Positions 23,975-27,486 of a stretch of 37,051 nucleotides of DNA are shown here, piece after piece. A program made the position numbers and the translations under genes. Positions within the stretch are counted from its first letter, which is position 1, and each line of letters starts with the position of its first letter. The notes under the pieces were generated by a model. That model ran no database searches, had not been told where the DNA came from, and saw only the letters and a list, made by a program, of their open reading frames with translations. Source of the stretch: Fidelibacterota bacterium (GTDB lineage Bacteria; Fidelibacterota; UBA8477; JABMPR01); NCBI GenBank assembly GCA_018650445.1, contig JABIFX010000160.1, forward strand, positions 1-37,051. Reading direction: 5' to 3'.

Positions 23975-24130
23975 GGCTATCTCCAATTATGTCGTAATGA
24001 TCCATACATCAACCAGTTTGTAAATATACTTGCCAAACTAAATACAGAAAGGTCCACCTGCAAATATCAAAAGCTTAACATTCATAATAACCACAGGTGG
24101 TTTTTGGTATCGCTTACGATTAGAAGTTGT

Positions 24131-24159
24131 AAAAAACCCAGGTCCGAAAAGAACCTGGG
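24131..24159 (-). terminator. Intrinsic terminator of the selW-like gene
   Basis: Read on the minus strand: a perfect 7-bp stem CCCAGGT / ACCTGGG (24159-24153 and 24143-24137) with a 9-base loop, followed by TTTTTT (24136-24131). It lies 40 bases after the selenoprotein stop codon at 24199-24201. Confidence 0.88.
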
Positions 24160-24198
24160 CTAAGAGGTTTTAAAAACAGCAAAGAGTAGGGGAATGGC

Positions 24199-24426
24199 CT
24201 AAGCTAATTGATCAATCACCTCATCATCACTGAGGGGGAATCGGCCTAATTCTTTTTTTGAAAAGATCAATTTACTGTCTTTCCATATATTGTATGCTCC
24301 ACCTGATGAAGGCAGGATGGTTAGGTCGTCGACTTCATTTCCGAATCTATCAAGAATGCCTGCAACCAAACTGGTTGCTCGTGGTAGGTAGTTTCAGGTA
24401 ACGCAATATTCAATTTTAATTTGCAT
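24199..24426 (-). CDS. SelW/Rdx-like selenoprotein with in-frame UGA (Sec) codon
   Basis: A 75-residue thioredoxin-like Rdx-family (SelW/SelT/SelH) protein. The frame from ATG 24426 contains a TGA at 24396-24394 (codon 11) in the motif C8-V-T-U11, precisely where family members have CxxU or CxxC. The sequence around it matches the family on both sides: IEYC, then NYLPRATSL, LPSSGGAYN and IFSKKELGRFP, which continue in frame up to TAG at 24199. The ATG has a strong AAGGAGAT ribosome binding site 4-5 bases upstream. A hairpin directly after the UGA fits a bacterial SECIS. If UGA were a stop the product would be 10 residues. The gene is transcribed divergently from the DCC gene. The function is presumed redox. 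Confidence 0.92.
24362..24396 (-). promoter_or_regulatory. Putative bacterial SECIS element after the UGA codon
   Basis: On the minus strand the UGA is followed, after 15 bases, by GCAACC-AGTTT-GGTTGC (24378-24362), a perfect 6-bp stem with a 5-base loop. The first loop base is 22 nt past the UGA, inside the 16-37 nt window described for bacterial SECIS hairpins, and the loop has a G in its first two positions. Such a hairpin recruits SelB with Sec-tRNA. Experimental confirmation is absent. Confidence 0.75.
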
Positions 24427-24446
24427 AGCTATCTCCTTTGTCCTTT

Positions 24447-24475
24447 AAAGTAAATTTTGCAACTCAGCTTGACAA
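24447..24475 (-). promoter_or_regulatory. Candidate promoter of the selW-like gene
   Basis: Minus strand: TTGTCA (24475-24470) and TACTTT (24452-24447), 17 bases apart. The -35 has five of six consensus bases, the -10 only three. The transcript would have a 5' leader of about 20 bases carrying the AAGGAG site. The -35 overlaps that of the divergent promoter. Confidence 0.4.
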
Positions 24476-24498
24476 CTGCTGAAAAATAGGATTAGTAT
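24469..24498 (+). promoter_or_regulatory. Candidate promoter of the DCC gene
   Basis: Perfect -35 TTGACA (24469-24474) and -10 TAGTAT (24493-24498), 18 bases apart. Transcription would start near 24505, that is at or beside the start codon of the DCC gene, predicting a leaderless mRNA. The only nearby ribosome binding site-like bases (AGG at 24488) lie inside the promoter. Confidence 0.5.
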
Positions 24499-24504
24499 CA
24501 CGTG

Positions 24505-24924
24505 ATGTTAGTCGAAGTCACTACTGGAAATCATCCCATCCTGCTTTTTGATGGCTATTGCAACTTGTGTAGTGGATCTGTACTTGCGATCATCAGGAGG
24601 GACCCGCAAGCCATTTTCCGCTTTATCAACCTGCAGTCAGCTCTGGGACTAGCACTTCTGGATCAGCATAATCTTAGCACGAGTGATATTGATTCGGTGG
24701 TGTTGATACATAATAAGTCATATTCAATAAAAAGTGATGCAGTCCTGGATGTTTTTCACCTGCTGGGCGGAATCTATCGATCTCTAGCAATTTTTAAATA
24801 CTTGCCCATTTCATTCCGCAATTGGATTTACGACTGGATCGCTGGGAATAGATATACGTGGTTTGGGAAAAAAGACGTCTGCATGATACCGACGCCTGGG
24901 CTGAAAGAACGGTTTCTTTCCTAA
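24505..24924 (+). CDS. DCC family thiol-disulfide oxidoreductase (DUF393)
   Basis: A 139-residue thioredoxin-like DCC protein. The family signature DGYC19-NLC22 is at the start of the fold (ILLFDGYCNLC), then FRFINLQSALG, and a C-terminal pair of helices including RSLAIFKYLPISFRNWIYDWIAGNRYTWFG, where the family has its conserved hydrophobic segment. The activity is presumed disulfide exchange. The start is ATG 24505, or GTG 24502; a strong -35/-10 immediately upstream suggests the mRNA begins there. It is divergent from the SelW-like gene, and the two redox genes share a promoter region. Its stop overlaps the end of the MFS gene by convergent TAA/TAG. Confidence 0.85.
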   Translation: MLVEVTTGNHPILLFDGYCNLCSGSVLAIIRRDPQAIFRFINLQSALGLALLDQHNLSTSDIDSVVLIHNKSYSIKSDAVLDVFHLLGGIYRSLAIFKYLPISFRNWIYDWIAGNRYTWFGKKDVCMIPTPGLKERFLS

Positions 24925-26087
24925 GTGGTCGTGCTATGCCTGATCTCTGCTTTACGGATACTCCCCGAAATAAATTGAACAGCAATAAGTGAGATAAGGC
25001 TCATCACCGCACCACCGATGAATGGAATTCGATAATCAACAATCCAGGCTAGACCTCCCAATACGGGAATAACCACGGCTGCTATGTGATTGATGGTGAA
25101 TCCCATGGCCATGGTGGGTGCCATGTGATCTGCATCCCCCACTTTTTGGAAGAAGGTGCGAATCCCCATTGAAAAATTGAAAAAAATATGATCAAGAATA
25201 TAGAGAACTGCCATCACTGCCTTGGTTTCTACGGTGGCATAGGCAATAAAAATAAAGATCAGACTTAGATACTCCGTAGAGAGAACCTTCTGTTCTCCAA
25301 ACCGAATGATGGCTTTACCAATCAAAGGACTCAGGAAGTAATTGATGGCATTGTTGAGCATGAACAACATGGTGATTTCCTTAACGCTGAAGTGGAATTT
25401 TTCAACGAGCAGAAATACAGCAAAAGCCACAAAGATCTGACGCCGGGCACCTGCCATAAAGGTTAGGAAATAATAGAGGCTGTAGCGTTTTCTGAAGATC
25501 ATCTTCTTTTGTTGGGGAACTACATCTTGCCGCGTAGGATTTTGAAACATGCCCCAGATGCCCGCGATGACGATGAAACCACCCAGGATGCCAAACATCA
25601 ATTCTTAGCTGATAACCGAGCTGGCACCCAGCAATACAAAACCGATAACGATGGCAGATGCTGAAGAATAGCTACGCAATTTACCCATGACCCAGGGGGA
25701 GGTATGCGTATCAAAATATTGTAGAGTTAAGGACTGGTTTGTAGTCTCAAAATAGTGAAAACCAAAACTCATGAGCAGCGTGGTGAAAATCAAGCCGGTA
25801 AAAGAGGGAAATACACCAGTAAAACTGATTCCAAGACCCAAAAATGCCACTGATAAGGCCGAAAGACGATGCTCTTTGATAACCAGTGTGACAAAAACCA
25901 CGAGGAGGGCCAGAAAACCAGGTATTTCCCTTACAGACTGAATAACACCAATGTGATTCCCGCCCAGTCCCACAATATCAACTGCAAAATTATTAAAGAG
26001 GGTACGCCAGACCTGAAAGCCCATAGTTGTGACAATTGACATCACAGCAAGGAAAAGGAACATACGGTCTTGTCGGACTTTTTGCAT
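24921..26087 (-). pseudogene. MFS transporter interrupted by one in-frame TAA
   Basis: Two frames with the same phase, separated only by a TAA at 25607-25605, together encode about 388 codons, the length of an MFS transporter with 12 helices. The first part (160 residues) begins MQKVRQDRMFLFLAVMSIVTTMGFQVWRTLFNNFAVD and the second continues MFGILGGFIVIAGIWGMFQNP with a long cytoplasmic loop and six more helices. There is no frameshift. The mutation may be a true pseudogene, a strain-specific nonsense change, or a sequence error. It lies 58 bases downstream of the hydantoinase gene on the same strand and could have transported its substrate. UAA is not a recoded codon in bacteria. Confidence 0.8.
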
Positions 26088-26145: not shown

Positions 26146-27486
26146 TTATTTTGATTTGAGAAGGATGCCTGGTAAGGGAGAATTCAAAGACCCTCTTTCA
26201 ACAACAATTTCACCCCGCCTGATAACTGTTTCAGGAAATAATGCAGGAAAATCTGTGTAAGCATTCCAGTCCAGCGATGTGTCCAGCCTGGATTCCCAAT
26301 TATCAGCTATTGACCGGGGATCGATAATCATCAGGTCAGCATGCAAACCAGGCTTTATAGCCCCCTTAAGATGATCTAGAGCAAAAATTTCAGCCGGATT
26401 CCTGCTGGTAAGGCGGACCAATAATTCCAGATCAAGATGTCGCTCCATAAATTGAGCTAACAGGGTGGGGAAAAGCGTTTCCACGCCGCCCATCCCATTG
26501 GGAATATCCTGAAAGGGAGTGCCCATGGGTTTGTCCGTCAAACAAAAGGGGCAATGGTCAGAACCAATGGTGTGGATCTGTCCATTCTGGAGCCCCAACC
26601 ACAATGCCTCACAATCTGCTTGAGAACGTAGAGGTGGGCTGGACACAAACATTTGTCCATCCTTTCGCTCATACATCTTGTCAGAAAGCAGTAGGTAGTG
26701 GGGGCAGGTCTCAACTTTCAGTAGGGGATATTCAGTCGTCTTAGCCAAGCCAGCTGCAGTATTAAGGTGGACAATATATATGGTACAGTTCGTTCGATCG
26801 GAGATTTCTCCAAGCTTACTCACCGCCACCAACTCTGCTTTTGCTGGTCGACTCAAACCATGATAACGAGGATGGATTTCCTTCCCGTCAGCGAAAGGTT
26901 CTGATGCACGTGTGATTACATCATTGTCCTCTGAATGAACCATGAGAACACCCCGGTGTTGAGCAATTATTGTAGCGACTGCCTCTATTTGCTCATAGGT
27001 CAACATCATGTTTGCTTCAGCATAGGTGGTAAACACTTTAAAGCTATTGAATCCTCGGGCTATCAATTCTGGAATCTCAGCTAGAATTTCCGGTTCGAAA
27101 CGAGTGATGTTGACATGAATACCAACATCGCATACGGACTCGCCTGCCAGCTTTATTCGAGTGTTGAGGCTTTCTGCCAGAGATTGTCCCGCTTCTAGGA
27201 CGCTAAAGTCCAGAATGGTGGTTACCCCTCCATGGAGGGCCGAGCGACTTCCTGAGGCGAATGTGTCCGCAGAATAGCCACTTTTGATAGGTATCCCCAT
27301 GTGTGTATGCGGATCAATGACTCCTGGGAATATCCATCGTCCACTAGCATCCAAAATTGTGGTGTTCTCTGGTGGCTCAATTACGGGAGATATTTCTGCA
27401 AATAGGCTGTCCTTGATGAGGACATCCTGAATTTCCTGACTTTGAGATCCGAAGATTAGGCCATTTTTTATGAGCAAAGAACTCAA
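26146..27486 (-). CDS. Hydantoinase/dihydropyrimidinase-family amidohydrolase (hyuA-like)
   Basis: A 446-residue cyclic amidohydrolase. Metal ligands are visible: H60 and H62 in FPGVIDPHTHMG, the probable carbamylated Lys in NSFKVFTTY, then VHSEDND, IVHLNTAAG, VETCPHYL and GSDHCPF. The length and motifs fit D-hydantoinase/dihydropyrimidinase more than dihydroorotase. In E. coli a related enzyme (HyuA, phenylhydantoinase) lies beside yqeB, yqeC and mocA, as here. It would open cyclic ureides such as hydantoins or dihydropyrimidines. It overlaps xdhC by 4 bases and is the fifth gene of the operon. Confidence 0.88.
   Translation of the reverse strand: MSSLLIKNGLIFGSQSQEIQDVLIKDSLFAEISPVIEPPENTTILDASGRWIFPGVIDPHTHMGIPIKSGYSADTFASGSRSALHGGVTTILDFSVLEAGQSLAESLNTRIKLAGESVCDVGIHVNITRFEPEILAEIPELIARGFNSFKVFTTYAEANMMLTYEQIEAVATIIAQHRGVLMVHSEDNDVITRASEPFADGKEIHPRYHGLSRPAKAELVAVSKLGEISDRTNCTIYIVHLNTAAGLAKTTEYPLLKVETCPHYLLLSDKMYERKDGQMFVSSPPLRSQADCEALWLGLQNGQIHTIGSDHCPFCLTDKPMGTPFQDIPNGMGGVETLFPTLLAQFMERHLDLELLVRLTSRNPAEIFALDHLKGAIKPGLHADLMIIDPRSIADNWESRLDTSLDWNAYTDFPALFPETVIRRGEIVVERGSLNSPLPGILLKSK

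Follow-up and report, generated by a model that had tools for sequence, protein, structure and literature searches.

A SelW-like gene of Fidelibacterota (SAR406) with an in-frame UGA that is very probably read as selenocysteine

In the Sargasso Sea survey of 2005, SelW-like proteins outnumbered every other selenoprotein family, with 48 genes, and in the available sections of that study (PMC1088965) the function of the family is described as unclear, with the CXXU motif suggesting a redox role. The passages available from the 2008 survey of the GOS data (PMC2398784) give SelW-like proteins and SelD as the most widespread selenoproteins, and SelW-like proteins head its table with 427 Sec forms versus 56 Cys homologues; in excerpts of a 2021 marine survey the family makes up 11.3% of selenoprotein genes. 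For the bacteria known as the SAR406 cluster or Candidatus Neomarinimicrobiota, two names that share one NCBI taxid (62680, Fidelibacterota), part of a 2016 survey (PMC5029168) lists three single-cell genomes as 'orphan SelD', and we found no description of SelW in this phylum in the accessible portions of three open-licence PMC papers, PMC8318568, PMC9012183 and PMC5029168. The gene described here has the same CxxU motif as the Sargasso Sea and GOS genes, with a SECIS-type element behind the UGA as in those (PMC1088965 and PMC2398784, sections available), and very probably belongs to this known, widespread marine selenoprotein family.

The gene lies on the minus strand of the window (the whole 37,051-nucleotide stretch of DNA that was analysed), where one frame runs from an ATG at 24426 through a single TGA at 24396-24394, codon 11, to a TAG ending at 24199. 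Reading through the TGA gives MQIKIEYCVT-U-NYLPRATSLVAG..., a product of 75 residues, and a genome search arrived at the same place, with one TGA inside. An earlier sequence-only reading of this DNA had proposed a hidden SelW/Rdx-like selenoprotein gene in this frame, and both its coordinates and its letters proved correct, as did the sequence AAGGAGAT that it had noted ahead of the ATG, the ribosome-binding site; similar purine-rich stretches precede the start in close relatives. The strong terminator that it had placed after the gene is borne out by the folding energy, the z-score and the T run (Table 1), but a terminator pattern scan missed the hairpin at 24165-24125 and found none. A gene of this kind would be expected to be lost or truncated by callers that treat every UGA as a stop; SelW genes of Epsilonproteobacteria were also wholly missed in annotation, as reported in the available part of PMC4607533.

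Table 1. Features at and around the SelW-like gene, in window coordinates.
Feature	Coordinates	Strand	Basis
SelW/Rdx-family gene, putative selenoprotein	24199..24426	(-)	75 aa with predicted Sec at residue 11; Pfam PF10262
In-frame TGA, very probably read as selenocysteine (C8-V-T-U11)	24394..24396	(-)	one TGA in 144/150 listed phylum matches
Putative bacterial SECIS-type hairpin	24362..24378	(-)	6-bp stem, 5-nt loop AGUUU; fold -8.3 kcal/mol, z -3.05; covariation over 64 sequences
Ribosome-binding site AAGGAGAT before ATG	24431..24438	(-)	read from sequence
Terminator-like hairpin and T run, downstream of SelW gene	24125..24165	(-)	fold -17.9 kcal/mol, z -4.74
Divergent DCC1-like thiol-disulfide oxidoreductase	24505..24924	(+)	Pfam PF04134 E 1.7e-27 (ORF 24502-24924)
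MFS-transporter gene, upstream, conserved selW neighbour in the window's family	24921..26087	(-)	comparison of loci

The read-through protein matches the Pfam Rdx profile (PF10262) with an E of 2.9e-18 and 66.3 bits, versus a cut-off of 22.6, and reaches 48.7 bits in the NCBIfam subfamily TIGR02174 CXXU_selWTH, above the curated cut-off of 34.2, in agreement with the Rdx assignment first made by eye. Its best NCBIfam match is NF041051 SelTWH_Campy (E 4.1e-21), the equivalog of the Epsilonproteobacteria SelW (PMC4607533), yet with 75 bits it stays under the cut-off of 88 and is not filed there. Behind the first strand lies the CxxC/CxxU motif, with the TGA in place of its second Cys, and columns 8 and 11 are invariant in the 29 aligned sequences, in which U was written as C. 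A structure model predicted from these 29 sequences has a mean pLDDT of 97.0 and shows the order E-H-E-E-E-H-H in a short thioredoxin-like fold. When the PDB was searched with the model, 21 chains were returned at E <= 0.001, all from six entries of SelW-related bacterial proteins (2fa8, 2obk, 2p0g, 3dex, 2oka and 2ojl), with TM (query) values of 0.88-0.92 and identities of 24-33%, and the sequence search matched the same six entries. Their chains are of 103-108 residues versus 75 in the window protein, and 2fa8 has a Cys (CTQC) at the position aligned to Sec. Mouse SelW (2npb), which carries a CxxU motif, was rank 22 in the fold search, so that the 22 best PDB chains are all SelW-related; the fold is the same, with a TM (query) of 0.73, at an identity of only 18%.

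An in-frame TGA could also be a true nonsense mutation that split a former Cys-type SelW gene, and the adjoining MFS gene is itself interrupted in this assembly, by a TAA found in 0 of 15 relatives. The Rdx genes of the phylum speak against this reading. A Pfam Rdx search of 245 phylum genomes, which reads through stops and requires none, gave 151 matches in 144 genomes, of which 150 are listed: 144 of the 150 contain exactly one TGA, and every one of them begins within profile positions 1-3; the remaining six have no stop and set in from position 16 onwards, past the motif (the window Sec is profile position 10). No Cys form at the motif was seen among the 150 listed matches, six of them not reaching it, and one of the 144 matches with a TGA, in genome G144, is short and below the cut-off. 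The table of this search counts stops and does not place them; DNA was read for 50 of the 144, and in all 50 the TGA stands at the motif. The same search gave matches in two archaeal controls and is thus able to find Rdx genes elsewhere. In a protein search 26 of 26 relatives had the TGA at the motif, among them Bacillota, Zixiibacteriota, a planctomycete and an actinobacterium; the sets of relatives overlap, and 12 of the 26 are judged to come from the window's own genus. All 64 sequences that were collected, window included, carry a TGA at this codon, a count shaped by the collection script, which demanded a stop there; the search of the 245 genomes made no such demand.

Both halves of the protein are conserved in these relatives, and conservation at the protein level extends over the 64 residues that follow the UGA. 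The residue three before Sec is Cys in 63 of the 64 sequences and Ser in one (L019), and one sequence (L062) reads YCNA, then TGA. L019 (15-239) is a close relative in which the TGA and the hairpin are kept, and its Ser in place of the CxxU Cys represents either an SxxU form or a record error. Relatives lacking the C-terminal part or the TGA, which the sequence-only reading had named as evidence that would tell against it, did not appear; the relatives keep both. The conserved residues also bear on whether the full product is made. SelB-driven read-through of UGA competes with termination, and the UGA might mostly terminate to give a short peptide, with Sec insertion rare or selenium-conditional; the conservation of 64 residues behind it argues that the full product is made often enough for selection, and we consider predominant termination barely conceivable.

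Eukaryotic SECIS elements sit in the 3' UTR, unlike the window hairpin (PMC1088965, sections available). In the bacterial SECIS model of PMC13188914, as far as given in its accessible part, the loop has 3-9 nt, the upper stem 4-16 bp and the spacing 16-37 nt (legend of Fig. 2A), a G stands within the first two loop positions, mostly as N1-G-[G/U]-N-N2 with N1 and N2 pairing, and the minimum free energy is -7.5 kcal/mol or lower. Applied by hand, this model agrees with the window hairpin on every point. Fifteen nucleotides after the TGA follow the stem GCAACC, the loop AGTTT and the stem GGTTGC, giving a 5-nt loop on 6 bp or, if the A-U pair closes, a 3-nt loop GUU on 7 bp; the loop reads A-G-U-U-U with G in position 2, the UGA-to-loop spacing is 21 nt, and the 23-nt hairpin stretch folds below the energy limit (Table 1). 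The stem, the loop, its G and the distance from the TGA are as described in the sequence-only reading; the loop spacing, which it had put at about 22 nt, is 21. The z-score in Table 1 is that of the 23-nt stretch alone against its shuffles, whereas a 61-nt fold did not stand out from its shuffles (z -0.02), and an Rfam search of 24100-24520 gave nothing above the gathering score. At the exact spacing, the loop G with at least 4 contiguous pairs is found in 55 of the 64 SelW genes versus 1.3% of 14629 background TGAs from the same DNA, real genes included. A freer search, with hairpin loops of 3-8 nt and a spacing of 16-37, was too loose to discriminate well and reached 6 pairs in 29 of 57 SelW genes versus 13% of 1710 sampled TGAs.

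Covariation was analysed over the 64 aligned sequences (window included, 62 distinct). Overall, 83.9% of the cells are paired versus 71.0% in shuffles, and 50 cells carry changes in both partners versus 13.1; when the partners were slid by 1 to 3 columns, 14.5-54.3% were paired and at most 21 cells were changed on both sides. One stem pair takes AU, CG, GC, GU, UA and UG forms. Four stem pairs show changes in both partners, a number equalled by 2 of 6 slides and 10 of 500 shuffles, and the outermost two pairs of the stem are frequently lost (19 and 28 of 62 unpaired). Since the hairpin codons also encode conserved residues and kinship inflates the contrasts with shuffles, the covariation supports the hairpin without proving SelB binding. 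The three pairs nearest the loop are not all formed at the window register in six of the 64 sequences: L027, L028, L029, L032 and L040 from other phyla and L049 from Fidelibacterota. Of the two Bacillota sequences L027 and L029, neither with a clear hairpin of the window form, the former has a different fold (-11.9 kcal/mol, z -2.21) and reaches only 3 pairs in the free search, and the latter has no fold better than shuffles and reaches only 4; in L030 and L031 the hairpin lies in another register, and L035 is in register. A count over 59 sequences, with L027, L029, L030, L031 and L035 (all from other phyla) left out, gives 86.5% paired and is not used as evidence.

With the TGA conserved across relatives of several phyla, both protein halves kept and a covarying hairpin, we reject decay of a Cys-type gene: a nonsense mutation is ruled out by the conservation of the TGA in relatives, and we give this reading next to no weight.

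The window's own genome is of 3.9 Mb in 273 contigs and 86.75% complete. It has matches to SelB (347.8 bits versus a cut-off of 242.25) and SelA (520.6 bits), whose genes are neighbours on the same contig (C265), to tRNA-Sec (72 bits; called tRNA-SeC with anticodon tca by ARAGORN) and to SelD (362 bits, with 1 TGA inside). All four genes that the sequence-only reading had proposed to look for, selA, selB, selC and selD, are present, and the absence of selB or tRNA-Sec, which it had named as counter-evidence, was not found. The tRNA-Sec model also scores over its cut-off in the Caulobacter, Thermus and Thermotoga controls and is thus not wholly specific; we know of no Sec use in these three. 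Beside SelW, at least three more genes of this genome have an in-frame TGA at known Sec-type sites, namely SelD, a UxxC peroxiredoxin-like gene and a CHYU AhpD-like gene. The TGA of SelD (L072, contig C56, around 1528) lies in KAAG-U-AGK, presumably the Sec site of the SelD family, and a GGUCCAGGGGACC-type hairpin stretch follows it (-14 kcal/mol, z -1.82). The AhpC/TSA-type, peroxiredoxin-like gene (L099, contig C148, position 1615 of the reverse complement) has its TGA in UxxC (GGW-U-PYC), the AhpD-like gene (L103, contig C116, position 1618 of the reverse complement) in CxxU (CHY-U), and each is likely a further selenoprotein. A second AhpC/TSA match (G000:C235:3543-3899) also contains one TGA.

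UGA codons inside several genes of one genome could also mean that they encode an amino acid other than Sec (Trp, Gly, or Cys via a special tRNA), genome-wide or locally, and a Cys-charged tRNA-Sec would be compatible with the sequence alone. Against this, TGA closes 6 of 33 hand-picked genes of the window, so that UGA is a normal stop; the in-gene UGAs that were read (SelW, SelD, peroxiredoxin-like UxxC, AhpD-like CxxU) are all at family Sec sites, and SelA, SelB, SelD and tRNA-Sec are present. The Sec motifs of the SelW, peroxiredoxin-like and AhpD-like families are tabulated in the available parts of PMC2398784 and PMC13188914. A reassigned code is ruled out by the genes that end normally in UGA and by where the in-gene UGAs stand, and recoding in any of these forms is very improbable compared with selenocysteine.

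The phylum as a whole appears to use Sec broadly, as SelB is found in 167 and SelD in 176 of the 245 genomes; most of the SelD matches listed contain a TGA. SelB is present in 122 of the 144 Rdx genomes versus 45 of the 101 without Rdx (Fisher p 4.7e-11, uncorrected for kinship). A SelB match is absent in 22 Rdx genomes, among which 15 have a tRNA-Sec match (5 of the 5 of good quality, with completeness of 90% or more and contamination of 5% or less) and 7 have none; SelA is found in only 6 of the 22 (3 of the 5 of good quality). Because selA and selB are neighbours in the window's genome, assembly gaps are the likely reason for the missing SelB and SelA. Given the frequency of SelB and SelD and the TGA in most listed SelD matches, incompleteness is also the simpler reading of the three SAR406 'orphan SelD' single cells (PMC5029168, as listed in the part available), which we infer are likely just incomplete genomes. 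In some genomes (G032, G112, G113, G204-G212, G214, G215 and G217-G222 among others) SelD lies in an open frame of ~735-765 residues with no internal TGA, which may represent a fusion of the kind of Ndh-SelD, named in the available text of PMC2398784. Whereas the Sargasso Sea and GOS SelW-like genes come from metagenome data (PMC1088965 and PMC2398784, in the sections at hand), the window gene has a known host phylum with known Sec machinery, and no Cys form was seen among the 150 listed matches.

The neighbourhood of the gene was compared over 18 distinct loci of the window's family, the window not counted, two of which begin too close to selW. Of the 16 loci with enough upstream DNA, 15 have an MFS gene ahead of selW in the same orientation, and the DCC1-like gene is beside selW in 11 of the 16, in part of the genus. 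The MFS gene of the window has an in-frame TAA at 25607-25605 (-), and with the stop in 0 of the 15 relatives read, intact copies exist; the TAA is either a real interruption or a sequence or assembly error. We rejected a second hidden selenoprotein upstream, at the ORFs 25605-26087 and 24921-25601, as the two form a single MFS gene in the same frame and the codon that interrupts it is TAA, a stop that the 15 relatives all lack. For other families of the phylum we compared 30 loci (L041-L070, the reference L055 included), which are the best-scoring ones and not a random draw. The upstream gene is related to the 450-residue gene of L055 in 25 of the 30, and in the same 25 the downstream genes of L055, of 262 and 129 residues, also have relatives. 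These genes conserved around selW (L055 2-1354, 1706-2494 and 2495-2884, with their counterparts in L041-L070) are uncharacterised, and the flanking proteins of L055 and L054 that were scanned gave no Pfam or NCBIfam match above a curated cut-off. Selenium-dependent molybdenum hydroxylase genes had been reported 1.7 kb from the SelW gene. Maturation genes of this system are real in the window, with YqeB at 4.1 kb and YqeC at 5.5 kb, both over their cut-offs and YqeB being the nearest such gene, but what lies at 1.7 kb (26146-27486) is a dihydropyrimidinase-like gene, the XdhC-like gene that starts at 3.1 kb is below its curated cut-offs, and no molybdenum hydroxylase subunit was found among the 27 window ORFs, of 115 listed, that were scanned with Pfam or NCBIfam.

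Taken together, the Rdx match, the Sec machinery, the conserved TGA and the covarying SECIS-type hairpin support the reading of UGA as selenocysteine that had been made from the letters alone, and codon 11 of the SelW gene is almost certainly decoded in this way. We propose that SelB with Sec-tRNA(Sec) would bind the hairpin just behind UGA codon 11 at the ribosome, and that selenocysteine would be inserted at this codon. The predicted product is a small thioredoxin-fold protein in which the Cys8/Sec11 pair may form and resolve a selenylsulfide, and it probably acts as a thiol-dependent redox protein through these two residues. A more tentative idea, which we hold to be rather doubtful at present, is that SelW is Sec-only in the whole phylum and occurs in two conserved neighbourhoods, with an MFS transporter next to it in the window's family and uncharacterised genes on either side in other families. 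If true, a Sec-only SelW would mean an obligately Sec-dependent pathway with dedicated partners, in a phylum for which the 2016 survey has three 'orphan SelD' listings. The broader gain is a clear Sec trait of the phylum Neomarinimicrobiota (SAR406).
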